Positions 8,328 through 64,000 of a DNA stretch of 64,000 nt are shown piece by piece (positions within the stretch are counted from its first letter, which is position 1; every line of letters starts with the position of its first letter). Below the pieces are notes generated by a model. It made no database searches. It saw nothing but the letters and a program-made list of their open reading frames with translations, and had not been told where the DNA came from. Position numbers and translations under genes: made by a program. This DNA is from Muricea muricata (Eukaryota; Cnidaria; Anthozoa; Malacalcyonacea; Plexauridae), in the NCBI GenBank assembly GCA_963855995.1, contig OY979717.1, positions 67,254,354 to 67,318,353 on the forward strand, read 5' to 3'.

Positions 8328-9046
8328 TGACATAATAAGTGCTACTCTGGTTTTTGTTAAATGAATGAAATCACCGAACAAAGATTACATTCACGACCCA
8401 ACGTTTCGACACTCCGGTCTAGTGTCTTCATCAGGGGTGGTCTGATGTTGAAACTCACGACCTTATATGCTGTCAAGGTGACGTCATTTACCAACAAGAT
8501 GTAAATACTCTTGCGGTAAATGACTTCCGTCATCCCTATTTAAGGCACAAGGGCTCGCATTGATATGCCAGGCTTCCAAACAAAGCCTTTGACCATAACG
8601 ATTGTTAGTGGTAATGACTTTAGAATTTTACCACGCAATGTTATGGCTTGTTTCACACACGTGTTCCGCCAAAGCTGATTTTGAGCTGCTAAAATTAGAA
8701 ACAGCCCTTTGATGTTCTTTCAGACGTGTGCAAAACTGGCGTTTTGTTTGACCCAGATATACTTTCTCGCAATCACCGCATGGCATAGAGTATACAGCAT
8801 GTGTTTTCTGATCAGTCGGAACGCGATCCTTGGGTTTCGCAAAAATATGTCCCAATGTCTGAAAAGGTTTCAGGGAAACCTTAATACCACAATTATCAAG
8901 AACTCTCCTGATTGGTTCCGCAATTCCTTGAATGTACGGGACTATTGCAAAACCTTTCACGGCGGAATCACCCTCTGGAGAGTTGCAATGAGTCAAGGTT
9001 GGACGCCTTAAACAATCGTAGAGAAAGCTCTTAGGATAATTGTTTT
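8328..9046 (-). mobile_element. Penelope-like element fragment, left arm of palindrome
   Basis: This arm is an inverted copy of 9068-9785. On the minus strand 8996-8628 encodes a Penelope-type linker followed by a GIY-YIG-like nuclease region: AVYSMPCGDCEKVYLGQTKR with CTRLKEHQRAV, then ALAEHVCETSHNIAW. The reading frame ends where the plus copy has GAA but this copy has TAA. Only the C-terminal endonuclease part is present; no reverse-transcriptase core is seen. Penelope-like elements are retroelements with this RT plus GIY-YIG architecture. Confidence 0.8.
8404..8434 (-). ncRNA. Hammerhead-ribozyme-like core, left arm
   Basis: The mirror copy of the core at 9678-9708, on the minus strand: CTGATGA (8434-8428), stem II GACAC/GTGTC and GAAA (8407-8404). 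The core bases are identical to the right arm. The same caveats apply. Confidence 0.5.
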
Positions 9047-9067
9047 GTGATAATTTGTTCTGAAAGA

Positions 9068-9785
9068 AAACAATTATCCTAAGAGCTTTCTCTACGATTG
9101 TTTAAGGCGTCCAACCTTGACTCATTGCAACTCTCCAGAGGGTGATTCCGCCGTGAAAGGTTTTGCAATAGTCCCGTATATTCAAGGAATTGCGGAACCA
9201 ATCAGAAGAGTTCTTAATAATTGTGGTATTAAGGTTCCCTGAAACCTTTTCAGACATTGGGACATATTTTTGCGAAACCCAAGGATCGCGTTCCGACTGA
9301 TCAGAAAACACATGCTGTATACTCTATACCATGCGGTGATTGCGAGAAAGTATATCTGGGTCAAACAAAACGCCAGTTTTGCACACATCTGAAAGAACAT
9401 CAAAGGGCTGTTTCTAATTTTAACAGCTCAAAATCAGCTTTGGCGGAACACGTGTGTGAAACAAGCCATAACATTGCGTGGGAAGATTCTAAAGTCATTA
9501 CCACTAACAATCGTTATGGTCAAAGGCTTTGTTTGGAAGCCTGGCATATCAATGCGAGCCCTTGTGCCTTAAATAGGGATGACGGAAGTCATTTACCACA
9601 AGAGTATTTACATCTTGTTGGTAAATGACGTCACCTTGACAGCATATAAGGTCGTGAGTTTCAACATCAGACCACCCCTGATGAAGACACTAGACCGGAG
9701 TGTCGAAACGTTGGGTCGTGAATGTAATCTTTGTTCGGTGATTTCATTCATTTAACAAAAAACAGAGTAGCACTTATTATGTCGG
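9068..9785 (+). mobile_element. Penelope-like element fragment, right arm of palindrome
   Basis: Plus-strand copy of the same sequence. The nuclease part at 9257-9628 reads AVYSIPCGDCEKVYLGQTKR, KEHQRAVSNF and HVCETSHNIAWEDSKV, and continues to an LEAWHINA motif before its stop. The linker upstream (about 9110-9240) is in another frame, so this copy carries a frameshift near 9240 that the left arm lacks. Each arm is therefore disabled by a different lesion. A direct repeat GATTTTGATGT at 8318-8328 and about 9828-9838 may be an insertion footprint. Confidence 0.8.
9678..9708 (+). ncRNA. Hammerhead-ribozyme-like core, right arm
   Basis: CTGATGA at 9678-9684 is followed by a perfect 5-bp stem II (GACAC 9686-9690 with GTGTC 9700-9704) and then GAAA at 9705-9708. 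This is the conserved hammerhead core. Penelope-like elements are known to carry hammerheads. Stem III could form with ACGT upstream (GACGTC near 9627), but stem I is not convincing by eye. Candidate only. Confidence 0.5.
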
Positions 9786-13114: not shown

Positions 13115-13868
13115 GGCAGAGTTTTAAATTCGCCCCGTTTCTGTTTTTAATTTTTTTCCTATTTTTAAATTTTTTTCGTTGTCACAGCGCTCATGGGTGA
13201 TACCGCTGGGCACAAGCCGCGTGAACAGACCTAAACACGGCCTTTAAACCCAATTTCTAGCGGAATATGTCAACAAAACACGCATTTTAACATGTATGCT
13301 AGAACATCTAAATCGCAAGAAGGTTTTGTGTGCAAAGATTCTCATGCAAAATGTTTTAAAACGACAAACTCCACCGTGAAACTTTACCGAGGAGCGATGT
13401 ATCGCGGTGAAGTTTTGAGAGCGTGTTTCCATTATTTTATGTTGTGTTTCCACTTTTAGGAAATTTAGAAATTTCTACACAAGAATCAAACGCCAATTCT
13501 ACTGAAATATCTATATACAAAACACAATTTTTAAAATGTAATAGTAAACAAAAAGGGACAGGAAGGTTCTTTATCAAAATATTGCTCCAGAATTGTTTTA
13601 AAACGGCAAATTTTGATAGACTCCATCATTCCATGATCAAGGAGTGAGTCCAGGAAATGTGTTCCTAATTCTAATCACGAAGTATTCGTTGTGATTTCTT
13701 TCCTTGGTATTCTATTTCTACCTATGTTGAGATGCTGATATTTTGTGCAAAATGATTTTTTTGCTTGTGGGATCTCATACATTTATAAAAGGTAAGAGAC
13801 GTTTAACATTCCAATTCCAGAAATGCATATGCTAGTCTAAAGTTTCTAACAAATTATATCGTGAAGAC
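13115..13868. repeat. Left arm of ~750-bp inverted repeat
   Basis: This arm matches 25497-26455 in inverted orientation over its whole length. Landmarks: AGCGCTCATGGGTGATACCG, CGGTGAAGTTTTGAGAGCG and a shared block near 13640-13700. It lacks the 206-bp MITE plus TSD present in the right arm. No coding content is evident. Confidence 0.75.
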
Positions 13869-13879
13869 ATTCCAATACT

Positions 13880-14229
13880 CACAGGATGAAAAATCATATT
13901 TGCCCTCACATTGGCACCAGTTGCCAAAATGCAAATACCGCGAATGCAACACATTTGCTATGGTGCGAATTCATGTGCAAATGTTTCAAGCGATGTCAGT
14001 TAAAAGATATCGGATGACTAATGTGTCCATATATCACTACACTTCATATGATTTTGTCTTTCAATCATGGCCTCACAAAAATGATTTTCAAACAGAGCAT
14101 TCATGCATTTTAAGTGGTTAATCACATTTTCACATGAATTTGCACCATAGCAAATGTGTTGCATTCGCGGTATTTGCATTTTGGCACCGGGTGCAAATGT
14201 GGGGGCAAATATGATTTTTCATCCTGTGA
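13880..14229. mobile_element. CACTA-like MITE, 3-bp flank repeat
   Basis: Inverted ends CACAGGATGAAAAATCATAT, with nested inverted blocks (GCAAATACCGCGAATGCAAC and its complement). The flanking triplet is ACT on both sides (13877-13879, 14230-14232). A 3-bp TSD with CAC ends fits a CACTA/EnSpm-type non-autonomous element, tentatively. Confidence 0.6.
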
Positions 14230-25496: not shown

Positions 25497-26455
25497 CTGA
25501 AGTCTCCACGATATAATTTGTTGGGAACTTTAGACTAACATATGTATTTCTGGAATTGGAATGTAAAATGTCTTTTACCTTTTATAATTATATGAGATCC
25601 CACCAGCAAATAAATTATTTTGCACGAAATATTAGCATCTCAACATAGGTAGAAATAGAAAACCAAATAAAGAAATAACAACGTGTTTAGAATTGGGAAC
25701 ACATTTCCTAGACTCACTCCTTAATCATGGAATGATGGAATCTATCAAAATTTGCCGTTTTAAAACACTTCTGGAGCAATGTTTTGATAAAGAACTTTCC
25801 TGTCCCTTTTTGTTAACTATTACATGTTAAAAATTGTGTTTTGTATGTAGATATTTCAGCAGAATTTGCGTTTGATTCTTGTGTAGAAATTTCTAAATGT
25901 CCTTAAAAGTGGAAAAACAACAGAAAATGACGGAAACACCATAGAGATTATAAATAACACTAGAGAGGACGACGAGGGTAAAATTTGGGAGCGCGGCGAT
26001 TGGGGGGCAAATTCTGTAGGAAGATGATTGTTTTGCTACTCGCTATCTATCGCGGAATAGATAGCGAGTAGAGTAACCAATCAAATTACAGCATTTGCAA
26101 TAGTATACTAGTATGATTCTACTAATGTTATTTATAATCTCTATGGGAAACACGCTCTCAAAACTTCACCGCGATACATCATACATCGTTCGTCGGTAAA
26201 GTTTCGCGGTGGAATTTGTCGTTTTAAAACATTTTGCATGAGAATCTTTGCACGTAAAACCTTCTTGCGGTTTAGCATACATGTAAAAATGCGTGTTTTG
26301 TTGACATATTCCGCTAGAAATTGAGTTTAAGGTCGGCTCACGCGGCTCGTGCCCAGCGGTATCACCCATGAGCGCTGCGCTAACTTGCGACACCAAAAAA
26401 AATAAAAATAAAAATAAAAATAAAACAGAAACAGGGCGAATTTAAAACTCCGCCA
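25497..26455. repeat. Right arm of ~750-bp inverted repeat, with MITE inserted
   Basis: Inverted partner of 13115-13868. It is about 205 bp longer because of the insertion at 25940-26145 plus its 8-bp duplication. Without that, the arms have nearly the same length. Confidence 0.75.
25940..26145. mobile_element. MITE with CATAGAGATTAT ends, 8-bp TSD, empty site known
   Basis: Inverted ends CATAGAGATTATAAATAAC. Perfect 8-bp duplication GGAAACAC (25932-25939, 26146-26153). The left arm of the surrounding repeat carries the unoccupied site (GTGTTTCC once, near 13423-13430). This confirms both borders and TSD length. The interior has a GATAGCGAGTAG foldback near 26041-26070. Confidence 0.9.
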
Positions 26456-31219: not shown

Positions 31220-32548
31220 TCAAGCCCTTTGGGTGCAACTCTTGAATTCTTTAATAAAAATGGTTTCTATCGCCGCTACATGATGTACAAACATATCTTC
31301 AGGGAGTATCAGTCGTCCAGAGGCTTTAATTCCTTCAAAGGTCTTAAAGACGCACAATAATTGACTGCTGTCGTTAACATTCTCTGTTGTAAAGGTTTGA
31401 GTGCATGTCTCGCAGATGTGTTTGCTCAGGCACTTTTTAAGCAGATATCCGGCTGCATATGTTAATGCATTCATGCATACCAAATTTTTTCTTATTTCTT
31501 CTGTTTTGTAGTCGCTGTCATCTACTTGGATGTGACTTGGCTGTGACTTGGTGGTCTGCTCATCATCACCTGCTGGTAGATTTGACTCACGGGTATGGGA
31601 TCCGATCAAAAAAGTATCGAAATCTTCCGCACGATTCCCAGTTGACAATGGTGTTAAGAAGTTGTTGACAAACAGCTTGCGAAATGCTCTGATGAATTGC
31701 AGTGGAGATGGATTTTCACAATTCCCCCCTTGTTGCCTTATAAGACCAAAAAAGCTCTCTAAGACATCTTGATTCAACCGTCGGGTCATGAAGAACTCTA
31801 ATGAATAATCTTTATACAGGTGCTTCCATAATGCATTTATTCCATTTAATGTCATTGTAAATCCTTTCAGACATCGAATATGGTTTGATACATCTTCTTG
31901 GCTTCTCTTGTCAATCACCTTGATGGATGCAATGAACTTCAACATATCAGCAATGAATTGATGGTGGGGTGAATTTTCAGACCTTGCCTGTTTGTAGATC
32001 TTTGTGCTATTTAGAGAGGAGCTATTTAGATAATCAAAGATGTTGTCAAAATTTGAAATAAGTTCAGCAGTTCCCATGGCAGATGGTGGTAAAGCACCCA
32101 GTGAGATATACGTGGACATTGTGGAAGCTACGGTTTGGCTAATGGTTTGTGTCGCAAGCTTTACTTTCATTTTCATGAAACCGTTAGGATTGATAATAAT
32201 GCTTCTGTGTTAGTTTGGGACAACATCGAAGATTTTGTGTTCTATCAAGTTCGTTAATGACTTGAATATCTTCCCAGGATGCTACCTTCTTCATGTTCTT
32301 GCCACAGTGAATGTCATATTTCATGAGATTGTTTCTCACAGCTTTGATGAGATGAGGTGAGTCATAAAGATAAAATATTTTCTTTCCCTTGTGGATAAAC
32401 CAGGGCTTGTCTGGTGTGATGTTTAGTACGCGTAACAGTTTTTGAAGGTTTGAACCCAAATCTGAAATGATGGTTTCTACAAATAAGCCAACTGATGTTT
32501 AGTCATCAATCATTTCAAACAGAATACTCTTGATCTCCTCACTTGGGC

Positions 32549-43688: not shown

Positions 43689-45607
43689 AGAGCAGAACAA
43701 TCTAACAGAAGCGAATGATGAATAGTAGAATGATATAACTCAGCTTGTAAGCAAGTAGGAACGATATCATCGCGGAATATCATCACTCGCCTCTGTTGAG
43801 ACTTCACATTTAACGACTACTTGATTGCCTGTGGCAAGAACAGTCAGGCACAAAAGTCCATGTGCAAGGCATTGACAAGTCAAAAGATCTGTTCAGCTCC
43901 AATTTAAACAAGTCCTTAATTGACCTTTTAAAGAGCGCTAAACTAGACAAGTTTCTCTGAGGAGTAACGAGAATGGACTTGTTCCAAAGTTTCACTATAC
44001 GGTTAAAATAAGATGACTGAATGGCGCTGGTACGACAATATGGTGTTTTCAGTGTTCTCAAATTACTTGACCTGGTCCGTCTATTATTGACAAAGGAGAC
44101 AAAGTTGGAAATGTCTATGCCAATGTGTCCATGCAATGCCTTATGAAAGAATGTTAAGTCTTTTAACTCTCTATCATAGCAAAGTGGTAGAAGATCTAAT
44201 GCAACTAGTCGATCCTTGTACTCCTGCTGTCCCTTGCGTTGCTGTAATATCCATCTTGTTGCTCTTCTTTGGACGTTTTCGACTTTGAGTTTGAGAGAAA
44301 TATTTGACGGAGACCAGACTTCAGTCGCGTAATTTAAGTGACACTTCACCAGCGAGAGATAGAGTGAGCGTCTTACTCTGGTGTCTTTAATCAGAGGACA
44401 AGTCCTACGCAGAAGGCCGAGCATTTTGTTGACTTTGCTGACAACAGTCAGAATTTGCTGGTTCCATGTGAAGTTGCTTGTTATCACTACTCCGAGATCT
44501 TTCTCTTTTCTTACAGGAGCTAAATAATGTTTTATCTTCAAGATGGTATTCAAAATTAACTGGATTTAGTTTTCTCGTCACTGCCAGAACTTTACATTTC
44601 GATGCATTAAATGACATATTATTAATATAGCTCCAAGTGTTGAGACTATCTAGAGATTGTTGTAGAGTTTCACAACATTGTATACTCGAAATACTTTCAT
44701 AAATTTTTGAATCATCAGCATAGAGAGCTGTCTGCGACCTGTTCTTGACAACATCAGGAGAGTCATTTATGAAGATTGCAAACAGTAAGGGACCAAGTAT
44801 GCTTCCCTGCGGAACACCAGATGTAACAGACGTCCATTGAGAAGCGACACCATCTACAACGACTCTTTGGAGGCGACCATGAAGATAGTCAACCAACCAA
44901 TTTAGCAATTTGCCTGTCACTCCATAAGACTTTAACTTTACAAGTAGAGTGCAGTGGTCTACCGAGTCAAAAGCTTTAGCGAAGTCCAAATACAGGATAT
45001 CTGTTTGGATGTTTTTATCTAAATTCTCTCCGATTGTATGGAAGACGGACAGGAGCTGTGTGACGCACGATCGATTTCTAACGAAACCGTGCTGTTCGTC
45101 TGAAATATGGCCGGAAACATGTTGGTAGAGATTATTGCTTACACAGCGCTCGAGTGTCTTGCTTACGATGGACAACAGTGAGATTGGACGATAGCTCTCA
45201 GCAAGTTCCTTAGATTCCTTTTTGTGGACAGGTGTTATGTTGGCAGACTTCCATTCTGTAGGCACTCGACCACAGTTTAGGGAATGGTTAAAAAGAGCGC
45301 ACAGGCTTGGTCCAATTTGTTCACAGCATACTTTCAATAAACGAGGGTGGATTTCATCTGGTCCATGCGATTTATTGACGTCTAAATTACGCAAATAGCT
45401 TATGACTTCTTCCTTACTTACAGTGATTTCGGATAATTCTGAGTCGCTTGGGAGCCGAACTGCACTATCAGTATCACCATTGTCCCATTGAACCCAACAC
45501 TCATCGATATTTCCTGAAAACGTTATATCTGGAGATTTCCACCTGGAGATTATATCTCCATCACTTTTGTCGCTGCACATTGTACACTTGACAATTGTTG
45601 ATGTCAA
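43546..45607 (-). mobile_element. CR1/L2-like non-LTR retrotransposon, 5' truncated
   Basis: Minus-strand ORF 45607-44405 contains the reverse transcriptase: GPDEIHPRLLK, PVHKKE...AESYRPISLLS, motif A YLDFAKAFDSVDH, motif B SGVPQGSILGPLLFAIF and the YADD active site. A frameshift near 44540 moves the rest to 44553-43810 (RKEKDLGVVIT, NLRTLKTPYCRTS), the usual C-terminal region ending in a stop. No endonuclease domain is seen upstream of 45607, so the copy is 5' truncated. The 3' UTR is about 120 bp and ends in (TTGTG)n. Confidence 0.9.
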
Positions 45608-45882
45608 CCTTCACTGAACTAACTGTATAAGCCACAAATTTATTCTTACATTTTCATGCAGCAAGGTCTAGTTTTCATTCATCGTTTCCTCGTGTTTTAT
45701 TGATAAATTTCATGATCATCAGGCAAAAACCAGCCAAACACTGTGATTGAAAAACCAAGACCTGAGTCAAAGAATATACGGCCAATGCGTGTCTGTCATC
45801 AAAATACTCGAAAATAAACTTTTGTTCGTGTTCTTTTCTCGAACAGCCAGTTAATTTTACAGCTGTAACTCTACGTTTGAAG

Positions 45883-48635: not shown

Positions 48636-48767
48636 TAGCTCAGTGAGCGAGAGCCATTGATATGTATAATACTGGATCGCGCATACATAATAAAATTTTG
48701 AAGTCATCGCCGCCATCTTGGTACTCCAGGTCCAGTGTTCTTTGCGGGTGTAAGAGTAATCTTTTAA

Positions 48768-51013
48768 CATAGATATAGTAGACCTAGATTGCTGACGTAT
48801 ACCTAGCGCGCGTGACCCCCAATAGAAGAATCCAAGATGGCGTCGCAACCGGGCAAAAAAACTAGTAATAGTATTACGAAAAACAGGTTTTTGGGCTTTT
48901 TTGATCGTTTAACTGCTGCGAATCACGTTCAACTGGACTTTTTTGAAAATAAGTCACTATTGCGGAGGTTTTGAACCTGAAATGAGACGAGTGGGCTAGA
49001 TTCTTACAAAATTATCGTTCGCTGAAGATTCCAAGGAGTGGACGTTTTGACCGGTTCCGTTAGTTTGCGTGGATTATTGCACTTTTAACACTTCGAATCA
49101 CGATCGATCGCGTATATTTAGGAAACGATGTTTATTATCTATGTTTTAATTGTGAAAAGGAAAGCGTTTGCCGAATTTTATGAAAAAATATCGTGGGTTA
49201 ATTTCCTCAGTATCAGCAGCTATACGCCGGCTATTATGACTGCACATCCACCTCCACCTGGAAGGTAGAATTTTGTTTGTTTGTTCATTATAGTTTTTAT
49301 GAGTTTATGGGAAATGATTGTTTGTGTAGAATCTGCTGACAAAGTAGCACAAATGTAAAAACAAATGATGTAAATAAGTATGAAAGAAACCCATGTTTCC
49401 AATTGGTTTCTATTGATTTATGATTATTGATATCAATACATATAATTTGTGTAAATCTGAGAAGCTAAGCATAGCTTTAGAGACTCATGATATTATTAAA
49501 GTGTACGTGAACATGCATGGGGCTTGATAACATGCGTGAATCAAATTAACATTTAATATACTTGAAGCAAAGATCTATTAAAATGTTAAATGACCAGGTT
49601 TTGTGTCATCAAAACTCAGAAAGTGTCTGGTATTATAAATTATAGATGTACAGCTTAATAAAGTTCAAAATACATATTGCTGGTTGCCAATGTGCTTCTG
49701 ATTTTGCTCAAAATCAATTACAATATTGAAATCTGCACATGAAAATCTCACCATTTGTCAACAAGCTGTGCCTGTGACAAATGTGTTGCAAAGATGAAAA
49801 CAAGTTGTGAAATGCTGTAATTTTTTAAAGCTCCTGTAAGCTTGTTAACAAGACATTTATAAATGCTTGTAAATGTGTGGGAATGTAAACACAGTTTTTG
49901 CAAAACATTATTATAAAATCAGATATTCTTTAGGATTGCTATAGAGATAATTAAGCAATATAACTTGCTACAGAGATAATTAAGCAATATAACTTGCTAC
50001 AGAGATAATTAAGTAATATTGACTTCTGCCTATAGGTATCAATTTTCATTTGTAATAAATATGACATCTCTGCAAGCCCAAAGCAGAACCCTGCATGTCC
50101 ATTATTACCTTATCCCAACTTAAAGTCAATCATGCTGCCTCCTGCAAAACTTGTAGTGTACCAGTACTGAAGGACTTTACGCAGATGTTAAATTTCATAT
50201 TTAATACTAAGCAAAAATCAAAATAACACTCAAAATCAAAATCACTAGAAGTAGTAATTTGTAAAAAAGTTAAATTTACTACAAGAACATACTAAACAAC
50301 CAGTTGTCTACTCCAGAAGTCTTTAAGGAACGATATTTGATACATGATAAACATCGTTTTCTAAATATATGCGATCGGTCGTGATTCGAAGTGTTAAAAG
50401 TCCAATAATCCACGCAAACTAACGAAACCGGTCAAACGTCCACTCCTTGAAATCTTTATCGAACGATAATTTTGTAAGAATCCAGCCCACTCTTCTCATT
50501 TTGCGCTCAAAACCTCCGCAATAGTGATCTATTTTCAAAAAAGTCCAGTTGAAGGTGATTCGCAGCAGTTAAACCATCAAAATAGCTCAAAAACCTGTTT
50601 TTTGTAATACAATTCCTAATGTTTTTGCCCGGTTGCGACGCCATCTTGGATTCTTCTATTGGGGGTCACGCGCGCTAGGTATACGTCAGCAATCTAGGTC
50701 TACTATATCCATAGATATATCAAATATTATCATATATCTATGGCGCGGCAGACAGGACAAATCGATGTTTTGTCGAATTGATGACCTTGAGCACCTTTAA
50801 TACGATGTTTTTGTATGTTTGATACGACTACTGAACACCTTTAATATGTTGAAACACCTTTGATTTGATGTCGTGCACCTTTGATTTGATGTCGTGCACC
50901 TTTGATTTGATGTTGCACCTTTGATTTGATGTTGCACCCATTGACATAAATACACCTTTGATTTGATCACAGGCCAGCGATTCATCACAAATATGAGACA
51001 GCGGTGAGGTGTA
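48768..51013. repeat. Left terminal inverted repeat of the HECT/integrase element
   Basis: Order from the outside: block A (48768-about 49140), block B (to about 50340), an inverted and more diverged copy of A (about 50345-50708), a 34-bp CATAGATATATC palindrome (50709-50742) and block C (to 51013, ending GCGGTGAGGTGTA). The inverted A copy is missing from the right repeat. A 60-codon ORF (minus, 49220-49402) recurs with the same translation in the right repeat, so it is repeat sequence and not evidence of a gene. Confidence 0.85.
50854..50968. repeat. Subterminal tandem repeats, left
   Basis: Five to six copies of CACCTTTGATTTGATG with 1-6 bp spacers, in block C of the left TIR. The mirror array lies at 60928-61022. 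Subterminal repeats often bind transposase. Confidence 0.8.
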
Positions 51014-51123
51014 ACTGGTATATACTTGATGTTACTTGATGTAAATCACTGTACATCTTGAATTTCTTATTTTCTTTGGTTCTTCCCGCGTTTTATATTT
51101 GCAAATAAAAATCAAAACTCACG

Positions 51124-54100
51124 ATGGCGTCGTCCTCGTTCTCAAATCAAACAGAAAACGCAAAAGAAATTCTTGAGAAGTGTGCCAAAAATATACTGCG
51201 ATGTATTGAAGGTATTACCTGTACTTTTCATTAACTTTTATTGTTAACAATTTTTTTCAAATTTGCATAAATTCTTGAATATATTAATATAAATGATAAA
51301 AGTTTTACTTTATTTATACTTTAATATTTGGTTGACGTTACATTTTTTCTCTCCAATAAACAGGCTTAGGGGAAAGCAGTAACAGCAAGGAAAGTTCTGG
51401 TTAGTAATAGTTTCATGTTAAAGACTGCGATAAGTTTAGGGCAATTAGCAATTCTTAGCAAGTTCTTAGCAGTTGGCTTGAAAGTGGAGAATGTTGAGGG
51501 TCAACAAGGTCATTGAAAACAGTCATAATTTGAACGTTAATATTGAGCATAACTGCATTCAACAAATGTCCATCTCTACTCCTGACTTAACCATTGCCTA
51601 AAATTTACACAATGTTCAGTATTTTGTTTCACTTTGGTATCAAGCACATAGTGGCAAATTTGACATGACAAGTCCCAATTACTAACCATTGGTGGATCTA
51701 GAGCGTTAATTGAGGGGGTGCATATTCATATATTCAGGTTCTGTCCAACTAATTTCTTTTGAAATCAACCTTATTTTAAAGAAATTAGTCAGGCAGAACC
51801 TGAATATATGAATATACACCCCCTCAATTAATGCTCTAGATCTGCCCCTGTTACTAACTTAATTCAATAACCAGCTGCACATTTTATATGTGAACTTTTT
51901 CATGTTTCTTATGGCTGCTTTATGAGTCACATTTTGTGAAGTTTTTGTTGGAATTTGTGTTTAAATTTTATGACCAATCACTGTTTGACCAATTATTTTG
52001 TTACTTCAGGGAACAAAGACAATAGGAAAATCTGTTATATACAAAGTACATGTCAATTTACCATAGAGCAGGGGCGTGCTGTGTCTTCAAAATGAACGAC
52101 AAACGAGTGACCTCACGAAACCTCACAAATGACTCTGTAATAACAATAACTAACGAGATGCAAATATCTTCCAGTTGCCTAGGACATCATAACTTACTGT
52201 AGCTAGTGTATACAACTCTTGTAGTGCTTTCATGCAAGTTACTTTTATAAACTGTAATGTATTTAATTACTTTAATTTGGAGTTGACCTACAGTAAATGA
52301 AGGGGTCCATTATGCTAGGGGCCTACAACGAGTTCTCATTGTCTCGATCCTGGCCAGCATGCCCCTGCCTTAGAGAAAATTAATGAAAGCCCTAGGCTTG
52401 TAACATTGTTGCCTTATAGAAAACTATCGAAGAAATGAAGAAAAGGAAGAAATACATAATAGAGCTTGTCAAAGCGGTTAGTTCTCTTTAATAGTTCTGA
52501 TTAGCCATTTCCCAAAGTCCTGGGAAAATGGGCATATAAAGTCATGTATGGAGAAACAATAAATAGTGCAGGCTTAGCAGCATGCATCCTTTAAATTATT
52601 TACTTAATGTTAAAAGGATATATTTCACTTTCCTGTCATCTAAAAAGTTTATTTAATAGTAGATTCTTGTATGTTCACATCTTTCATGGCTGTAACCATG
52701 ATTTTTCTGCTCCAAACAATCTCAGTATGCACTGCTGTCTCTTTTAGAGAAAAGGCTAATTGCTGAATTGTTTTAGAATTTTTGAATATCCATTCCTTAT
52801 TTTTTAGAGCTATTAAATTTCTATTTATTTTTTAAAAAAATACTAAGTATAAAGTACCGTACAGTAAATTCTGTTTTGTTTATATACTACAGTACGGTAC
52901 TGGTACTTGGTTTCCCTTTCGACTTTGAAAAATTGATCAATGTTTGACCCAGTAATGTATTTTGAAATCATAAAGACAACTATTTAACTCTACAATTTAC
53001 CAACTTTTTTGTCAAAACCACTTATTTTCCGGTAAACCTGATTTGGAAAACTAATTAGCCGCATAACAAAAAGCATATTGGCACATGCAAGTATGGTATT
53101 GAAATAATATAAAGTGTTTTCAGCTAGAACTACTAATTGTGGTACACTGTGCTTGACTTTATCACAGAGAAACGTTCATTCAAATAGTTATAAATTAATC
53201 TTAATAGCAAAAGTGGCGTGGTTATAACCTTTTATAAATTTTTGTATAGTATATACAAATATATATGTTATAGCATTTCTATAGTATCTATTCTTATATG
53301 TCTTCTTTTTGACATTGATTATAGCATCGGCTAGGGGAGAGCTGAACCGTTTGTTCAACTTTGGTCCATCCACTTTACGTTCCAACTCTACTCCAAGTAA
53401 TCCAAGAAAGAGGAATCATCAGACTACCCTCAAGCTCCCAAATACCTGGACACATATTTTTGTGTGTCTTGGCAACGTTACTGATAATGAAACACCAAAC
53501 CAGAGGTACAAGAAGATGTTGCAAGATGCAGGTCTTGGAGAAAAGAAAATAATTTTTAAGAAAAATGGTTCCTGCTCTTATTTTCATGAAACACTACTGG
53601 AAAACTATCCTCGTCTTCGTGATGGAGGAGGATACGAGTTGTTGCGTACCCAACACCGCTCTACAACCAGACTTGAAATACTACACCTTAGACCAGCAGC
53701 TGGTTATAATGTCCTTCACTTAAAAGAGGCCATTGCATCTGCTAAAATTTATGTAAGACCATTACAAAAAGATCTTAATCTTGAACCCCTACCAGAGAAG
53801 CAAGTTCCACAAGTAAGTTTTTAGCTATGTGTAAAAATTCCTGCATTAAAACTATAAAATGATCTAAATTTTCTGTTTTTATTTCAACACTGACATTATA
53901 GGAAAAAGATTTTGGGCCAACTGAAAAATGTATTGATTGTCAGGAAGAAGTGCCCTTGATTTCCTTTCGTGAGCACATGGCAAACTGCACTGGCTCGTCA
54001 AGCAAGTTTTTTGTGTCCAACTGTGATATAAGTGATGAATGTAGTGAAAGTGAAAATTTACCACTTACTGCTGGCACAAGTTCAGATTGTGAGATATCCA

Positions 54101-55998
54101 TGCCAAAGAGTTCCTCGACCAGTGTTTTAAACGAAACTACGTCACCAAAGATAAATTTTTCAGGTCAAGTATATTTCTTCTTTTGATATCTACAGTACAA
54201 GGGTGTCCATATTTAACATATATTATTTACAGCTGCAGTAAATTACCTATATTATACTGTGTTCCTTCGTAATTGCGTATTTCTTCTTGGCTTTTTCTTA
54301 AAAAGTATTCTTGCTTTTTATTTAGGTTCATTACACATTTTAAAAGAAATATTCCCCAGTGCAACTGATGATCAACTCAAAGTTGCATTGGAAGATAACC
54401 TTAATAATGTCGATTTTGCTGTCGATGAACTCTTGAACGAAACAAAAGGTAAATGTTGGCAAAATGCCTTGTCTTTCTAGGTTTTATTTAGGATCCAAGG
54501 AGTGCGTAAGTGATGGGGATTTTTTCTCATTTAAGATGATGATATTGAAAAAGTGGAAACTACCGGTACCAGAAGCATGAAAGACCTGCTCCGTTCAATT
54601 GTTCCCAGTAGTGGAAAATCCCCACAACGACTGACAGTCAGCAGAGACCACCTTTTTAATGATAGTATAGCGTTTTTCAAAAAACGCGATTTTGACGTCC
54701 TTAGTCCAGTCAGGGTTGTGTTCGAGGGTGAGCCAGTTGTAGATGGGGGCGGTCCAAGAAGGGAATACTTCAGTCTTCTACTGCATTGCATTGTCTCACC
54801 ATCGTCACCATGCCGACTCTTTGAAGGGCGCTCCTCATTCATACTCCCAATGCATAACGTTGATGCAATTAGAGCTGGTTTGTTTAAAGTGGCAGGTCGA
54901 ATGATAATGGCAAGTATAGTTAATGGTGGACCAGGATTTCCCCATTTCCCATCCATCTTGTACGATTACCTTATTTCATCTGCTGGTGAAACAGAGCAAT
55001 TATTATCGACAATAACTAAAGATGATGTTGTTGACTTTACTGTATTAGAGGCAATTCAAAAGGTATATACATTTTTGACAGCATGTAGACAATGTTCAAT
55101 CATAATTCTTTGTATATTATGCAATAACACGCATGGTGAGGTAAGCTGTGTGATATATATTTTGTTGTAGTGCTCTTTATACGAGTTTTTTTTTAACATT
55201 CCCGTTCTTGATTACGTATTGTAATTAACATTTCTTTAGATTGATGATGCCATGACAGACAGTGACATTCGACAAGTCTCGTGTGAAGTTCGTGAGATAC
55301 TTGTTGAGTCTGGCTATACCAGAGTGTTAAATTTATCCAACAAGTTAGATGCAATAACTACAATGTGCGTCCATTCAGTCATATTTTCACGAAATGCTGC
55401 CATTCACCAACTTGCCTTCGGATTGAAGCCTATCTTGGATATAGCACGAAAGTATCCAGAAGAATTGAAAGTTTTATTCGTCAATAAGGAGGGAAACAAT
55501 GACATTGACGCAGATAAATTCAAGTCCTTGCTGGAGTTCGAAGATGTAGAAGTTGGATTGAAAGACATGTTTTTGAAGTATATAGACACAGAAGGTAATT
55601 TGCTTGCCATATACACACCTAACACACGTACATCTTTTTTTTTTATTCGTAAGCGTTCCAAAGTCGTAACGTGAATAAAAATCTGAATAAATTTTTTCCT
55701 AACAGTTAGACATTTACTTGATCTGTGCACATTTTTACTTGAATATTCAAAATTTTTAGTTGACAAGCTACCAGATTTGCTGATGTTTGCCACAGGAACC
55801 AAACAAATTCCGCCACTTGGCTTTCACGATCCTTGCAAGATAACTGTCTTACAGTTAGATTCTATGTGTGGAAATTTGCCAAATTCAAATACCTGTCCAC
55901 AAGAGCTCGAGTTACCACTTCATGAAAGTTACGATGATTTTAAAAAAAGCATCGATTGTGCTTTATCAAATCAAAGCAGTGGGTTTGGAATTATTTAA
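51124..55998 (+). CDS. HECT-type E3 ubiquitin ligase carried by the transposon
   Basis: Nine exons by eye: 51124-51211, 51364-51399, 52420-52476, 53325-53812, 53902-54163, 54326-54448, 54536-55062, 55240-55594, 55706-55998. All phases match and give 742 residues without a stop. Start MASSSFSNQTENAKEILEKC. A middle region (TWTHIFVCLGNV, about residues 85-215) has no named domain. C233, C236, H248 and C252 form a C2HC finger-like motif. Residues 311-348 (LKEIFPSATDDQLKVALEDN) look like a CUE/UBA ubiquitin-binding helix bundle. From about residue 390 comes the HECT domain, with FEGEPVVDGGGPRREYF, MFATGTKQIPPLGF and the active Cys at 709 (NTCPQELELP). HECT ligases pass ubiquitin from E2 to substrate via that Cys. 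The donor after exon 5 (GTCAAG) is weak. Targets unknown; the nearest annotated relatives I recall are G2E3-like proteins. Confidence 0.85.
51687..51850. mobile_element. hAT-like MITE in HECT gene intron, 8-bp TSD
   Basis: Hairpin-like element of 164 bp. The right end GATCTGCCCCTG and the left CATTGGTGGATC are imperfect inverted repeats that become strong inside (TCTAGAGC, AATTGAGGGGGTG). Perfect 8-bp repeat TTACTAAC flanks it (51679-51686, 51851-51858). Confidence 0.8.
52069..52367. mobile_element. hAT-like MITE in HECT gene intron, 8-bp TSD
   Basis: Inverted ends CAGGGGCGTGCTG. The flanks CCATAGAG (52061-52068) and CCTTAGAG (52368-52375) match at seven of eight positions. Same intron as the 164-bp element, about 50 bp upstream of exon 3. 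Confidence 0.75.
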
Positions 55999-56983
55999 TT
56001 ATGGCCTGTACTTATCAGATTGACCTGTTTCTGTTTTTGTACTAAAATAGTTCATGTTCAACTCTTTACAATTTTCCTATTGTAAGTTAATCAAGCAACA
56101 TTGACAATGATATATTTTGGGCACACTAATCATACAATGTAGCTACGTTTGGTTGCAATTTATTTTTCTTGTTGGATTTAAGGTGCTCATTCCCCTTCAA
56201 GTTTTTTTTTCATTTTTAATAGTACAGACTTGCATAGTCAGGTTTTGAAGAGCAGAGTGATAGAAATCAAAATCTAAAAAATTTTTTTGATCATTCATTA
56301 ATTAGTCTAATTATCCTATATGGCTGCCCACTAATTAGCCAAAAAATGGTGTCGCTTGAAACACAATAACTCAAACACAATTAATCAGAACAACATAAAT
56401 GGCATATATTTAAAAAGCTTACAACATGATCTAGTGTCTGATATTGTTTTTTTTTTCACTGTAAAAACATTTTTGCAAAAACTATGGCATAAAATTCAAA
56501 TACTGGCAATTTTAGTTGCCTAATTAGCTATGTAAAGCTAATTAATACATTTTTAATGAGGTATATTAAAAATAACAAAATGTCAGACACTAGAGAATGT
56601 TGATAGCTATGTGCATACCAAGTTTCAATCCTTTACATTTAATATTTATAATGTTATGGTGTCACAAAGATTTCATAATGCCACGAATTTGCAAAACTGA
56701 GAAAATACCCTCTAAAGTATTGTTCCATTTCAATAGTATCTAAAACCAACCTGCTCCATAGCATGTTTTCTCATGGAATAAACAGTTTTTCAGTCAAACA
56801 AACCACATTATCTTAAAGTAATGATACTTAAAATACTAAATATTGATTTAAAAATTTTTGATTTTTTTAAAAAAGTTCAGAATTTGAAGAAAAATGACCA
56901 CCTTAATCATATTTTTGTTATCCTTGGTGTAAACTGTGAAGCAGTACATGTACATACAAGTCCAGTTGTTTTATTTCAATTAA
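55999..56983. other. Gap between the convergent HECT and integrase genes
   Basis: Holds the 3' UTRs of both genes. AT-rich; no ORF or repeat recognised. Candidate poly(A) signals are too common in this composition to assign. Confidence 0.5.
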
Positions 56984-58706
56984 TTATATTAAATTTGCCT
57001 GTTGGAGAAACTCACGAGCACAAACGTATAGATCAATTCCATAACTGTCACTTACTGCAAGTGGTTGTACAAGGGAATTTAAATGCACACTCTGTTGCTC
57101 ATTGATGTCTATAATGGTACTCGGGACATCAACATGATCATATTCTTCACTGGCAGTTCTGTCAACCGGCAATGGGCCATCCCAATCAATCCCATAATGT
57201 ATTTCTTCTTCCTAGTGAATTGAAATAGAAAATGTGAGATGCAAGTGTAACATGTCAAATAGCAACATGCAAGAATAACTTATTGAACTTTCTTAACTTA
57301 TGGAACTCTCTTAAATTATGAGACATAGTTTTCCCAGCCAATTATAGAGATGTTTTGAAAATAAATACCTACCTGGCTAAGACTTTCAAATAACTCTGAT
57401 GCAATTATTGTGCCCGTACCACGTATGCTTAGCAACCCCTCTGTAAATTGTTGAAGCGGTGATAAGCTGCCACATGTACGCATTCCATGATGGTTCCATG
57501 CCTCTGTCCATATATCAATATGACGATTTATTCGTGGAATAAATACAAAGTGCAGCGCAAAAATGTCGACACTGTTTAATGGATCAAGAACACCACAATC
57601 TTCAAGGTGGTGAAATAAGGAATGATATAAAGACAACACACTTGTATAAACATCCCTCCACAGACGCTCAATACGTTGGTTGTGTGTACTACAACCAGTG
57701 ATTACACTTCCTCTTCCTGTGCCTCTATTAGGATGTGATAGCATATATGTAGCAACATCCACATTCTCACCTCCTTTATCTGTCCTTACTCTGGATGGGA
57801 GGCCAAACTTTGCAACAGCTTCTTCAAATAATTTGAGCACAGTAGCAGCCTTGTTGTTATTTGAACAATGCAAGAATACAATCAATCGAGAGTAACCATC
57901 GATTGCACCATGCACAACCATCCTCCACCTAAAATTATGGATTTGGCTTCATAAATAGGAAATAGCTATAAGCTGTGTGAGACTGTCATGTTAAATTTGA
58001 CTTGATTTAAATATTAACATACATACCGTATCAACTTGTGATTACCATCCAAGTGCCAGAGAGCCAAAGGGGAAGTTACATTGTAACTTCGCCGCTTAAT
58101 TGTGGCAAACCACCGCAATGACGAACCTAATGGATCACATCTTCTGAGGCTATCTCTGAGCCTGTGCTCCTTTACACAAATGCCCTGGCATTTTAACATA
58201 GCGAGTATTTGCCGATAACCAGACTGAGGGAACTGTCTATGCACCTCCGTCACAATTCTGTCCAGTTCTTGATCAGTTAGAACAGAAAATTGAATGCCCT
58301 CCAAATTATACTGGTTCATACGTCTACTAATAGTCCTCGCACAAACTCCTAGCATTCTTGATATCTGGGTTTTATTGAAACCGACTGACAAAAAATATTC
58401 CAGTTGTTCTCGATGAATAGCTAATTTAGGCCTTCCCAGAGGCAGAGGCGATGTCAAACTACAATGTGATTCACGGTTCAAAGATGCCAAACATGTTCCG
58501 AGTAAAGTTACTGTTTCTGCTAGAGCTGCGACGCAAGCATTAGATACCACACCACATTCATTTAAAATAAAAATAGAGCGATGAAAATCCTCTGTAGTAG
58601 ATATAAGACTCTGAATCACATCGTCACTTAAATCCGGTTCATTCGCTGCTTTCAAGAATTCAAGCCGAAGTTGATTCAAGTCGGCAATGACCGCAGGTAT
58701 ATTCAT
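56984..58706 (-). CDS. HTH plus DDE integrase-type transposase
   Basis: Three exons on the minus strand: 58706-58027, 57928-57373 and 57211-56984. Donors GTATGT and GTAGGT, acceptors ending in AG; phases match and give 487 residues with no stop. Residues 120-160 hold a helix-turn-helix ([20 protein letters not shown]), followed by a second HTH-like part ([20 protein letters not shown]), an order seen in IS3-type transposases. The catalytic core has D220 ([13 protein letters not shown]), D277 ([12 protein letters not shown]) and E314 ([12 protein letters not shown]): a D,D(36)E layout as in retroviral-type integrases. The start was chosen as the first Met of the open frame, which lies about 90 bp inside the insertion border at 58799. 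It probably binds the TIRs and moves the element. Superfamily not certain. Confidence 0.87.
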
Positions 58707-58799
58707 GACATAACCAAAATCTAATTTACATTTATCAGTTTAATTTAGCTGAAAAATTGTAGATTTACTTATTCTTGCTAAACAATGGCGGCGCCATAT

Positions 58800-60857
58800 C
58801 ACAGATCAGGTATAGACCAGATGTCTCACTTCCTATCTATTCCTAATGTTTTTGTGTCCGCGATTTTTCGGCTGATCACGAATTGCACACGCGAGATGAC
58901 GCAACCAGAGAGCACGAATTGCTCACGCAATGGCACTTGCCCAGTGAACTCAAATAAGACTGGAACGCTACGTGGAGCTGAAATTTTGAAGCCAAGATGG
59001 CGGAAATTGAAGCTCGTCTTGTAGGTATGATCCAGGCCCCTGCGCGGAAATATTACCGAATTCCGTATGAAAAACCGGCTTCATCTCATGTGAAAATTTC
59101 ATATTTTCGGCCGACTATTTTTTTTTAGTACGGCTTTCCCATGGCTCTAGAAATTATAGCAAGTGGTCTTTCAGAATAACCATATTTTAGAAGCAGTTCA
59201 TCATAAAAAGCAAAGTTATTTGGCGAATGAAATTCAAGTTCAGAAAAAACCCGTGGAGAAACAAAAGCAAACTTTTGTTTTTTTCGACCACATGTGAGGG
59301 ATTTGAACAAAACACAGAATAATATGGACTGCAGTTGGATTAATCTTACCTTTTCGTTCGGTTTTTAGCTTTTAGGTAGGGTATTTACCGTTAAAATCAG
59401 CATTTAGGTGCAAAAATTGAAAAACATCGATCGGAAAACTTTCGTCATTTTTCAGCTCCCGCGAAGCCCACGCAGAAAACACGCGTGTTTTATACCTACA
59501 AGACGGCCTTCAATTTCCGCCATCTTGGCTTCACCCAAAGCTCAGGCTATTTACCTGAAGGTATCGTTCCAGTCTTATTTGAGTTCACTGCACTTGCCAC
59601 GCTGACGTGCACTGCTTACGTGAGAGCACGAATTGGACACGCAACACCTCTGGCAAGTGTAATCCTAGGTAGCCCACTAATTGATGGTATATTTTTGGTT
59701 CAAAAAATGTGCATTTGTTCTTGTGTTACTCTTTCTACAACTTTATTGATGCGCGCGGTCCAGTTCAATGCGCGGTCAGCTTGTGATACATCAACGTTTA
59801 CATCATGTATATATATTTTCCCAAGGTTGGCAAGTAAATACCTAAATTGCACACGTAGCCCCGACGAAATGGTACAAAAACTACACAAATACGATTGAAA
59901 ACACAAAATAAACACTTCAAAAATAGACTCAGATAATTTTACTAAACTGCCAGCCACTTTTTTGGGCGAAAACAACAATGAAAATCGGGTAAAATTCGCA
60001 AAGTTTTTCAACATTTTGTTGAATTTTTCGCTGTGACTATGCGTGGTCCAGGTCGTCTGACATTATTTCAAACGGTTTTCCAGTTTAACTGACGACGACA
60101 AGATTTCATTGGCTTTCGAAATTTTTCCAGCTTTACATACCAATGAAATTTTGTCGTCGTCAGTTAAACGGGAAAACCGTTTGAAATAATGTCAGACGAC
60201 CTGGACCACGCATAGTCACAGCGAAAAATTCAACAAAATGTTGAAAAACGTTGCGAATTTTACCTGATTTTCATTGTTGTTTTCGCCCAAAAAAGTGGCT
60301 GGCAGTTTAGTAAAATTATCTGAGTCTATTTTTGAAGTGTTTATTTTGTGTTTTCAATCGTATTTGTGTAGTTTTTGTACCATTTCGTCGGGGCTACGTG
60401 CGCAATTTAAGCATTTACTTGCCAACCTTAGGAAAATATATATACATGATGTAAACGTTGATGTATCACAAGCTGACCGCTCGTTGAACTGGACCGCGTG
60501 CATCAATAAAGTTGTAGAAAGAGTAACACAAGAACAAATACACATTTTTTGAACCAAAAATATACCATCAATTAGTGGGCTACCTAGGGTGTAATGCACA
60601 TTTTTTATCAGAAAAAAGACAGGGAAGTGCAGAATTTTGGCAGTTAAACGGCGATTTTAGGCGCAACTACCTATTGATCTTTATTTTCTTGACGAATTTT
60701 ACTGATAAATGATACGCTGCTTCTTTTTAGCAAGAAAGATTCACGCCACGCGAGCAAATCTGACGCGAGCAAATCTGACGAAGGCTGACGCGAGCTCTTC
60801 AAAATCGCGGACATAAATTTTGCTTAGTGAGACATCTGGTTCTATACCTGATCTGTG
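58800..60857. mobile_element. 2-kb TIR element inserted upstream of the integrase gene, 7-bp TSD
   Basis: Inverted ends CACAGATCAGGTATAG with CCAGATGTCTCACT, followed by a GTCCGCGATTTT block about 50 bp inside. A perfect 7-bp repeat GCCATAT flanks it (58793-58799, 60858-60864). Within it, 58905-59030 and about 59490-59640 are inverted copies (CCAAGATGGCGGAAATTGAA), and a foldback element is nested at 59664-60588. A minus ORF at 59310-59125 (GRKKQKFAFVSPRVFSELEF) has no recognised domain. Confidence 0.8.
59664..60588. mobile_element. Perfectly folding 925-bp foldback element, 7-bp TSD
   Basis: Two arms of about 460 bp meet near 60126 with almost no loop. Ends CCTAGGTAGCCCACTAATTG. A perfect 7-bp repeat GTGTAAT flanks it (59657-59663, 60589-60595). 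Each arm encodes the same short ORF (SIFEVFILCFQSYLCSFCTI, RKIYIHDVNVDVSQADR) on opposite strands, with a few substitutions. The repeated ORF has no known domain. Confidence 0.85.
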
Positions 60858-60878
60858 GCCATATGTTAAATGTCCTGC

Positions 60879-62723
60879 TACACCTCACCGCTGTGTCATA
60901 TTTGTGATGAATCGCTGGCCTGTGATCAAATCAAAGGTGCAACATCAAATCAAAGGTGCAACATCAAATCAAAGGTGCACGGCATCAAATCAAAGGTGCA
61001 CGACATCAAATCAAAGGTGTTTCAACATATTAAAGGTGTTCAGTAGTCGTATCAAACATACAAAAACATCGTATTAAAGGCGCTCAAGGTCATCAATTCG
61101 ACAAAACATCGATTTGTCCTGTCTGCCGCGCCATATATATCAAATATCGTTCCTTAAAGACTTCTGGAGTAGACAACTGGTTGTTTAGTATGTTCTTGTA
61201 GTAAATTTAACTTTTTTGCAAATTACTACTTCTAGTGATTTTGATTTTGAGTGTTATTTTGATTTTTGCTTAGTATTAAATATGAAATTTAACATCTGCG
61301 TAAAGTCCTTCAGTACTGGTACACTACAAGTTTTGCAGGAGGCAGCATGATTGACTTTAAGTTGGGATAAGGTAATAATGGACATGCAGGGTTCTGCTTT
61401 GGGCTTGCAGAGATGTCATATTTATTACAAATGAAAATTGATACCTATAGGCAGAAGTCAATATTACTTAATTATCTCTGTAGCAAGTTATATTGCTTAA
61501 TTATCTCTGTAGCAAGTTATATTGCTTAATTATCTCTATAGCAATCCTAAAGAATATCTGATTTTATAATAATGTTTTGCAAAAACTGTGTTTACATTCC
61601 CACACATTTACAAGCATTTATAAATGTCTTGTTAACAAGCTTACAGGAGCTTTAAAAAATTACAGCATTTCACAACTTGTTTTCATCTTTGCAACACATT
61701 TGTCACAGGCACAGCTTGTTGACAAATGGTGAGATTTTCATGTGCAGATTTCAATATTGTAATTGATTTTGAGCAAAATCAGAAGCACATTGGCAACCAG
61801 CAATATGTATTTTGAACTTTATTAAGCTGTACATCTATAATTTATAATACCAGACACTTTCTGAGTTTTGATGACACAAAACCTGGTCATTTAACATTTT
61901 AATAGATCTTTGCTTCAAGTATATTAAATGTTAATTTGATTCACGCATGTTATCAAGCCCCATGCATGTTCACGTACACTTTAATAATATCATGAGTCTC
62001 TAAAGCTATGCTTAGCTTCTCAGATTTACACAAATTATATGTATTGATATCAATAATCATAAATCAATAGAAACCAATTGGAAACATGGGTTTCTTTCAT
62101 ACTTATTTACATCATTTGTTTTTACATTTGTGCTACTTTGTCAGCAGATTCTACACAAACAATCATTTCCCATAAACTCATAAAAACCATAATGAACAAA
62201 CAAACAAAATTCTACCTTCCAGGTGGAGGTGGATGTGCTGTCATAATAGCCGGCGTATAGCTGCTGATACTGAGGAAATTAACCCACGATATTTTTTCAT
62301 AAAATTCGGCAAACGCTTTCCTTTTCACAATTAAAACATAGATAATAAACATCGTTTCCTAAATATACGCGATCGATCGTGATTCGAAGTGTTAAAAGTG
62401 CAATAATCCACGCAAACTAACGGAACCGGTCAAAACGTCCACTCCTTGGAATCTTCAGCGAACGATAATTTTGTAAGAATCTAGCCCACTCGTCTCATTT
62501 CAGGTTCAAAACCTCCGCAATAGTGACTTATTTTCAAAAAAGTCCAGTTGAACGTGATTCGCAGCAGTTAAACGATCAAAAAAGCCCAAAAACCTGTTTT
62601 TCGTAATACTATTACTAGTTTTTTTGCCCGGTTGCGACGCCATCTTGGATTCTTCTATTGGGGGTCACGCGCGCTAGGTAACGTCAGCAATCTAGGTCTA
62701 CTATATCTACGACTATATCTATG
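60879..62723. repeat. Right terminal inverted repeat of the HECT/integrase element
   Basis: Inverted partner of 48768-51013 comprising blocks C, B and A (inside to outside). It lacks the inner A copy found on the left; the junction is near 61130 at ATATATCAAATAT, a microhomology that could mark a deletion. The outer end has a 12-bp duplication (CTATATCTACGA). Over block B the two repeats looked identical in the stretches I compared. Confidence 0.85.
60928..61022. repeat. Subterminal tandem repeats, right
   Basis: Five copies of CATCAAATCAAAGGTG with short spacers, the inverse of the left array at 50854-50968. Copy number differs slightly between sides. Confidence 0.8.
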
Positions 62724-62732
62724 TCTTTTAAG

Positions 62733-62883: not shown

Positions 62884-63062
62884 TCAATGGCGAGAGCGAG
62901 ACCCAGAACACACGAGCAAGTCTGACACGAGCAAGTCTGACGCGAGCAAATCTGACGCGAGCGATCTGACGCGAGCAAATCTGACGAAGGCTGACGCGAG
63001 CTCTTCAAAATCGCGGACATAAATTTTGCTTAGTGAGACATCTGGTTCTATACCTGATCTGT
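62884..63062. repeat. Partial copy of the 58800-60857 element end
   Basis: Repeats the right end of that element (GAGACATCTGGTTCTATACC then TGATCTGTG) together with a 15-bp tandem repeat GACGCGAGCAAATCT (about six units here, two to three at 60740-60800). The reading frames across it are repeat translations. Confidence 0.7.
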
Positions 63063-64000
63063 GCCATAGATATGTACTTATACTACAGAGGAGGGTGGAA
63101 GCCCGTCCCAGCATGCATTGCAACTCATTAATATTCAGAGTCGTGATTTCTTACAATGTTTGTTGGAAAAGTTGTGGAAATTTATTTCATTTTTTCGCCA
63201 AGAATGTTTGGTATTTTTGAAGGTAAGTTTCTATGGATGTTTTAAATATGAGTCAAATTTAACGACTTTCGCTTTATTTGGTATTCTAATGCGTTGTATT
63301 TATGCTAATCGTCATTTGTACTGACCTGTTTTCTGGGTCATTGCACAAGGGTAAAAAGTGGCTTTCAAAACCCTCTGGGGACAATAGGGTTTTTTAATGA
63401 GAAATTAAATAAAATACACGCTATCGTATTCAAGAAGAGTTGCTCTTTCTAACAGAACTTTAGAAATTACATTGTTCCCATATAACTGACGAGTAATCGC
63501 GGTTTGAAAATGGGGCATTTTCACTATACTTGATCACAGGAATTTTCGTCCACTTGGGAATCATGACGCGAAAAAATACTGCATGAGTCATTATTTTTGT
63601 TTATTTCGAAGCGTTGGCATATATGTCGATCTCTCTTGAATTTAACTGCTGTATTTAAGTTATATACGCTAACTTTTTACATTTTTATAGAATTCGAATG
63701 AATTTTATGAAAATGGAATGATTCTGACAATGATGGCGTTGTTGTTATTGTTGATCAAGAGAATGACAAATACGGTGTGCGAAACGTTCGTGCTCTTAAT
63801 TTGCAAAATGACACCAAGGAAAGCAAATAGAAAGTCTTGAAGAGTTTCTCCCTTGGAAAACTTAACCTCCAGAAGTTGGATTATCTGCCCAGGCCATACC
63901 AGCTTTGGATAGATATTTCAGTATACATACAGGGTGTCCCAAAAAACCCCAAAAACTATTGAAAATGATCTATTGTTAGAATTTCAATGATTTCAATGCC
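63063..64000. other. Right margin, no gene recognised
   Basis: No convincing exon. At 63927-63944 TACAGGGTGTCCCAAAA appears, a motif reminiscent of mariner-like ends, but its partner would be outside the window. Confidence 0.4.

Follow-up and report, generated by a model that had tools for sequence, protein, structure and literature searches.

How does a gene for a ubiquitin ligase come to lie beside a transposase gene, and to which mobile element do the two genes belong? The question is raised by a 64,000-nt stretch of the genome of the cnidarian Muricea muricata (GenBank assembly GCA_963855995.1, contig OY979717.1, positions 67,254,354 to 67,318,353, forward strand), hereafter called the window; coordinates are window positions unless a contig or another locus is named. 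In a first-pass annotation, positions 48768-62723 had been described as one DNA transposon with terminal inverted repeats (TIRs) of about 2 kb and an 8-bp target-site duplication (TSD), carrying a HECT E3 ligase gene next to a DDE integrase gene. In the present analysis the association of the two genes with a transposon proved true and recurrent, while the ends, the 2-kb TIRs and the 8-bp TSD were found to belong to an outer repeat. The locus is very probably an IS3EU/GingerRoot-type transposon with an integrase-like transposase and a HECT E3, nested in an unrelated repeat dimer.

A transposon nested inside a repeat dimer

The repeat structure of the locus is as follows.

48760..48767 (no strand): left 8-bp TSD TCTTTTAA of the outer repeat
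48768..50713 (+): complete ~1.9-kb non-autonomous foldback unit with tips CATAGATATAGTAGACC, from window self-comparison
50733..50738 (no strand): left 6-bp TSD TATATC of the gene-bearing element
50739..61135 (+): predicted IS3EU/GingerRoot-type DNA transposon, 10397 bp, termini TATGG..CCATA
50739..51018 (+): left inner TIR, 92% to the right one
58800..60857 (no strand): later 2058-bp insertion, inverted tips CACAGATCAGG..CCTGATCTGTG, 7-bp TSD GCCATAT
60874..61135 (-): right inner TIR, terminal letters ..GCGCCATA
61136..61141 (no strand): right 6-bp TSD TATATC; the bases beyond it continue in the ~1.9-kb repeat
61142..62723 (-): remainder of a second, inverted copy of the ~1.9-kb unit (inner ~370 bp missing)
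62724..62731 (no strand): right 8-bp TSD TCTTTTAA of the outer repeat

The 8-bp TSD flanks 48768-62723 exactly, as had been annotated, and self-comparison also bore out the near-identical inverted arms (99.7% identity across 1576 bp). The left arm is itself a foldback structure in which 48768-49142 is inverted relative to 50340-50713, giving TIRs of ~370 bp at 92%. When the first 279 bases of the left arm were used as a genome query, 40 of 1262 candidates were scored, and all 40 match the arm end at 99-100%; two are the window's own arms and 38 are further copies (the 41st listed match is weak). Among 30 arm loci excised, 28 are elsewhere in the genome and reach well into the ~1.9-kb unit, L024 for just ~0.9 kb. 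One of the unit copies, L019, is shortened, with both ends visible and an 8-bp TSD of its own (GCGAAAAC); the loci of the other copies cover one end each, and these copies probably stand alone because their flanks differ. What had been annotated as 2-kb TIRs is a pair of inverted copies of a ~1.9-kb repeat that is independent of the gene-bearing element and does not supply its TIRs.

That element opens with TATGGCGCGG at 50739 and closes with GCGCCATA at 61135, and its TIRs measure ~0.28 kb. A genome search with the inner TIR, in which all 12 candidates were scored, returned strong inverted pairs at three places (the window, C1:120.78 Mb and C1:48.62 Mb), each with HECT and integrase matches inside; the six other matches are 70-73% alike. 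No ~1.9-kb arm sequence was found in the flanks read of copies 2 and 3 of this subfamily, which have the inner TIRs and both genes, and copy 3 has the TSD TAGATG. Two more families have the same kind of ends: family b (TATGGTTAGCG..CGCTAACCATA, with TSD CTTGAT in the C8 copy) and family c (TATGGGGCGCC..GGCGCCCCATA, with TSDs CACAAT and AACTAC). All seven elements with both ends read have TATGG..CCATA termini and contain both genes, and five of them have a perfect 6-bp TSD (the window, copy 3, the C8 copy and two of family c). The expectation that the gene pair recurs between similar TIRs was thus borne out, with TSDs of 6 bp rather than 8 bp, and the opposite outcome, HECT and integrase not co-occurring between the TIRs, was not seen.

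The relationship between element and repeat is recorded in the flanks. A pattern joining the two flanks, with up to three mismatches allowed, occurs at 108 genomic places, compared with 0 for a reversed control. The matches listed, about 100 of the 108, are uninterrupted interiors of the ~1.9-kb unit with a single TATATC, one of them being the window's own left arm. Since the unit interior is present at these 108 places, the bases to the right of the transposon belong to the unit, and paralogous copies show the insertion site unoccupied. A perfect match to the joined flanks was not found, and the listed places all carry three mismatches; the cause is the left flank, which departs from normal unit sequence beyond TTATCA, and we read the left side as locally rearranged as well. 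We concluded that the gene-bearing transposon is nested inside the ~1.9-kb repeat dimer, an arrangement by which a nested insertion can imitate a giant transposon with long TIRs. Neither of the other two subfamily copies contains the 2058-bp insertion at 58800-60857; with it subtracted, the element measures ~8.3 kb, similar to copy 2. Placed 94 bp upstream of the transposase ATG, the insertion could separate this gene from its promoter. The insertion contains large internal inverted repeats, and pieces of it recur at the right flank (62955-63068) and beside the unit copy L023.

Two other structures were weighed against this nesting. A single 14-kb transposon with 2-kb TIRs, 8-bp TSDs and the two genes as its own would explain the perfect 8-bp duplication around 48768-62723 and the 99.7% identical arms, but it is highly improbable: the arm repeat is found without HECT or integrase at many places, no arms were seen in the flanks read of other copies of the genes, and a separate set of TIRs with a 6-bp TSD encloses the genes. 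A composite transposon, in which two ~1.9-kb units serve as insertion-sequence-like ends and the IS3EU element is cargo, would agree with the inverted units on both sides of the inner element and with the one 8-bp TSD around everything. We consider this improbable too, given that the inner element's own TSD lies inside unit sequence, that the unit continues rightward and that its interior is unbroken at 108 places. With the inner TSD inside unit sequence and 108 uninterrupted interiors a nested insertion suffices; a variant of the composite model, in which the whole moved jointly after nesting, may also apply.

The class of the nested element follows published descriptions. In the available portions of two papers, IS3EU/GingerRoot elements are characterized by a 6-bp TSD, TA..TA termini and an integrase-like DDE transposase (PMC10045372, PMC12730594). 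The window element resembles the described IS3EU elements in its integrase-like DDE core, 6-bp TSD, TA..TA termini and TIRs of >30 bp, and its TATGG..CCATA ends fit the TAYGG..CCRTA reported for IS3EU of rust fungi. Fungal IS3EU also carry extra enzyme genes, with the transposase and alpha-kinase genes oppositely oriented (PMC12730594, available in part). The second gene is different: here it is a HECT E3 with a CUE domain, whereas the portions of the descriptions at hand name a TET/JBP dioxygenase and an alpha-kinase. By its 6-bp TSD, TA..TA termini and integrase-like DDE core the gene-bearing element matches the IS3EU/GingerRoot type and is assigned to it as a candidate member, the class itself being set by the published descriptions. 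No description of HECT in IS3EU transposons was found, as judged by title, abstract or term counts, in the literature searched, a search that lay outside Repbase, subscription journals and some preprints. None of the papers covered combines HECT, transposon and IS3EU, and the two that combine IS3EU with ubiquitin appear unrelated from their titles.

Ginger1, which is found in cnidarian and other animal genomes, offers a second comparison, again from a source available in part (PMC2836005). Its authors suggest that the ubiquitin/SUMO pathway participates in transposition, and like the window element it ties an integrase-type transposase to that pathway. It differs in its 4-bp CCGG/CCGT TSD and TGTNR ends, compared with the 6-bp TSD and TATGG ends here, and in having protease (removing) domains fused to the transposase in place of a separate, convergent ligase (adding) gene (PMC2836005). 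Membership in Ginger1 is ruled out by the 6-bp TSDs and TATGG ends. The enzymes of fungal IS3EU and the OTU and Ulp1 domains of Ginger1 show that related elements are already known to carry additional enzymes and to be connected with ubiquitin. Transposons that remove ubiquitin or SUMO (OTU, Ulp1) were known before, whereas the present lineage seems to keep a separate, co-inherited enzyme that adds ubiquitin.

The two genes and their co-inheritance

The coding exons are as follows.

53285..53812 (+): first HECT gene exon found, N-terminal part, well supported from GELN onward
53902..54163 (+): HECT gene exon, sub-threshold C2HC zinc-finger match
54326..54448 (+): HECT gene exon, CUE (ubiquitin-binding) domain
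54536..55062 (+): HECT gene exon D, HECT N-lobe
55240..55594 (+): HECT gene exon E, mid HECT domain
55706..55998 (+): last HECT gene exon, C-lobe, catalytic Cys codon at 55894-55896 (..SNTCPQE..)
56984..57211 (-): transposase exon 3
57373..57928 (-): transposase exon 2, DDE integrase core (PF24764 rva_4), D277 and E314
58027..58706 (-): transposase exon 1 from ATG, helix-turn-helix region (Pfam HTH_23, sub-threshold), first catalytic Asp D220

The transposase gene has three exons encoding 487 aa, with the triad D220, D277 and E314, the latter two separated by 36 residues; the D,D(36)E protein of 487 aa in the first-pass annotation was matched exactly by this model. Pfam scores are 267.4 bits for rva_4 (cut-off 26) and 34.1 for rve (cut-off 32.6). 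No PDB sequence match was obtained at E 0.1; named protein matches include Montipora, Dendronephthya and Ptychodera. The HECT gene, convergent to the transposase gene, has six coding exons, and each of its five introns has GT-AG boundaries. Its annotation as a spliced gene with the catalytic Cys kept held up, but the supported product is 678 aa (GELN to stop) rather than 742. It scores 74.7 bits for HECT (cut-off 23.9) and 22.5 for CUE (cut-off 21.1), and its catalytic Cys aligns to the TC motif of AREL1 in a PDB sequence match. As in AREL1 and HUWE1, the bilobal HECT domain ends in the catalytic LPx(S/A)xTC region. Unlike these proteins it is transposon-encoded, and its N-terminal part does not resemble them, the listed PDB matches spanning the HECT domain only. 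By domain score and catalytic Cys the product is a predicted HECT E3 ligase. A protein search with the full-length HECT sequence gave two distant proteins and nothing else, and one with exon D gave 17 proteins, the window's own among them. An upstream SAM-domain exon was not found by a simple motif search.

Genome-wide pairing was assessed with HECT exon D (150 matches scored of 384 candidates) and integrase exon 2 (150 of 775). Among the matches listed, 64 of 150 integrase matches have a HECT match within 6 kb, at gaps of 1.0-3.6 kb, and all 64 pairs are convergent. Random placement in 200 trials, with rounded lengths for some contigs, gave a mean of 1.23 pairs and a maximum of 4. A practical warning follows for genome annotation: with 64 of 150 listed matches adjoining a transposase, at least part of this genome's many HECT matches are mobile-element genes.

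The two proteins also diverge together. The 38 sequenced pairs fall into 25 families, differing by >15% in both proteins, over which HECT and integrase distances are correlated (Mantel r 0.49, Spearman 0.31, 0 of 10000 permutations). Tree distances are correlated as well (r 0.41, 0 of 10000), and the two trees have 9 of 22 bipartitions in common. HECT is the more diverged protein in 296 of 300 family pairs (mean 0.69 vs 0.46), a pattern that a protein following a changing host target would show, though weaker constraint would produce it too. Between families, dN/dS (ratio of nonsynonymous to synonymous substitution rates) of HECT exon D is 0.07-0.18, with dS saturated or, relative to the window copy, not computable. 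Within family b it is 0.19-0.32 for one copy against five others and 0.24-1.33 for ten other pairs with few changes. The catalytic Cys is retained at 13 of 13 distinct places reached by the alignment; 17 of 30 loci matched in this survey, of which three end short of the Cys, two rows are one place and L050 is a weak match. Some HECT exon D sequences are identical or nearly so, with one difference between C2:23.79 Mb and C2:38.53 Mb and none between C1:76.51 Mb and C3:55.80 Mb, which suggests recent movement or duplication.

Relatives probably occur in other animals as well. When contigs of prokaryote genomes were scanned, six loci with relatives turned up, two of them weak bacterial ones and four in metagenome-assembled genomes of sponge symbionts; these four are probably sponge contamination. 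On one of them (L135, QPIL01000069.1) an integrase (rva_4, 253.7 bits) is convergent to a 371-aa HECT-like open reading frame (ORF; 28.5 bits, cut-off 23.9). This ORF matches a HECT-like ORF of Muricea locus L133 over 305 aa at 27% (E 8e-35), with an HTC motif in both. Two of these four contigs, L136 and L138, are too short to show a downstream gene. Scans of viral contigs gave no relatives.

Taken together, these findings suggest that HECT has long been a partner gene in an animal lineage of IS3EU. Several observations weigh against the explanation as a whole. Among the listed integrase matches, 86 of 150 are without a listed HECT match. Three such loci were read: L133 has the HECT-like ORF mentioned above (392 aa, 30.3 bits), L134 has a SAM domain (23.2 bits, cut-off 23) together with a stretch that on visual inspection resembles the N-terminal part of the HECT protein, and L132 has an integrase without HECT. 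When the HECT and integrase trees are compared, six pairs of well-supported splits are incompatible. HECT exon D is frameshifted in both closest copies, with an additional stop in copy 2, while integrase exon 2 is open there, so that an individual copy may manage without HECT. Copy 2 (CCATAC/CCAATA) and the family-b copy at C1:2.17M are without a perfect TSD. Among the four probable sponge contigs HECT was seen in one, and L137 has retroelement-like ORFs downstream instead. As a separate observation, a 740-aa Mutator-like transposase ORF (269 bits) adjoins the integrase of L132 at 717-2939 (-) of that locus.

Possible roles of the HECT ligase

Binding of TIRs and cut-and-paste movement are established for DDE transposase families generally, and the transposase here would likewise bind the TATGG..CCATA TIRs and move the element. 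The HECT gene would have its own promoter, and its product would take up ubiquitin on the catalytic Cys; the CUE domain may hold ubiquitin, while the variable N-terminal part may select the target. In such a scheme HECT would ubiquitylate proteins that limit the element. Two points make a host silencing or restriction protein our preferred, still tentative, candidate: the faster divergence of HECT compared with the integrase, and the anti-silencing enzymes present in related IS3EU. A DNA-repair factor is an unlikely target. In an equally tentative extension, HECT may be the core second gene of an old animal IS3EU lineage, cnidarian and sponge and possibly vertically inherited over very long times; the ligase would serve to clear away proteins of host silencing or of the repair checkpoint where the element leaves or inserts, and the large numbers of HECT genes in such genomes would then be mostly transposon genes. 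The element offers a testable case of a transposon acting on host protein stability.

Alternatively, the target of HECT could be the transposase or strand-transfer complex of the element itself, for self-limitation or disassembly. The tight long-term linkage and convergent arrangement of the genes would suit such a role, as would Ginger1, whose transposases themselves contain OTU or Ulp1 domains (PMC2836005, available in part), but a partner that recognises the integrase is less expected to diverge faster than it, and this target seems less likely than a host protein. That HECT is passive cargo, captured repeatedly from host genes and useless to the element, is more doubtful. The broken HECT genes of two close copies and some conflict between the trees speak for it, together with the other enzymes (TET/JBP, alpha-kinase) of fungal IS3EU in the portion of the source at hand (PMC12730594). 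Repeated capture would have to be reconciled with 64 of 64 pairs in one convergent arrangement, correlated divergence over 25 families, the conserved Cys, low dN/dS between families and the same arrangement on a probable sponge contig, and we regard it as improbable. A host protein thus stays our favoured, if tentative, target.

Other features of the window

Several further features lie outside the nested locus. At 31220-32209 (-), a 329-aa ORF with the Pfam domains TNP-like_GBD (PF21788) and TNP-like_RNaseH_C (PF21789) is a transposase remnant of another family, and at 44405-45610 (-) a reverse transcriptase ORF (RVT_1, 113.9 bits) is a piece of a retroelement resembling those without long terminal repeats. 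Long inverted arms at 13244-13984 and 25502-26330, ~90-97% in pieces and ~12 kb apart, possibly represent another large TIR element. At 8329-9783, 549-nt inverted arms, 99% complementary and 357 nt apart, have a short ORF repeated on both arms.

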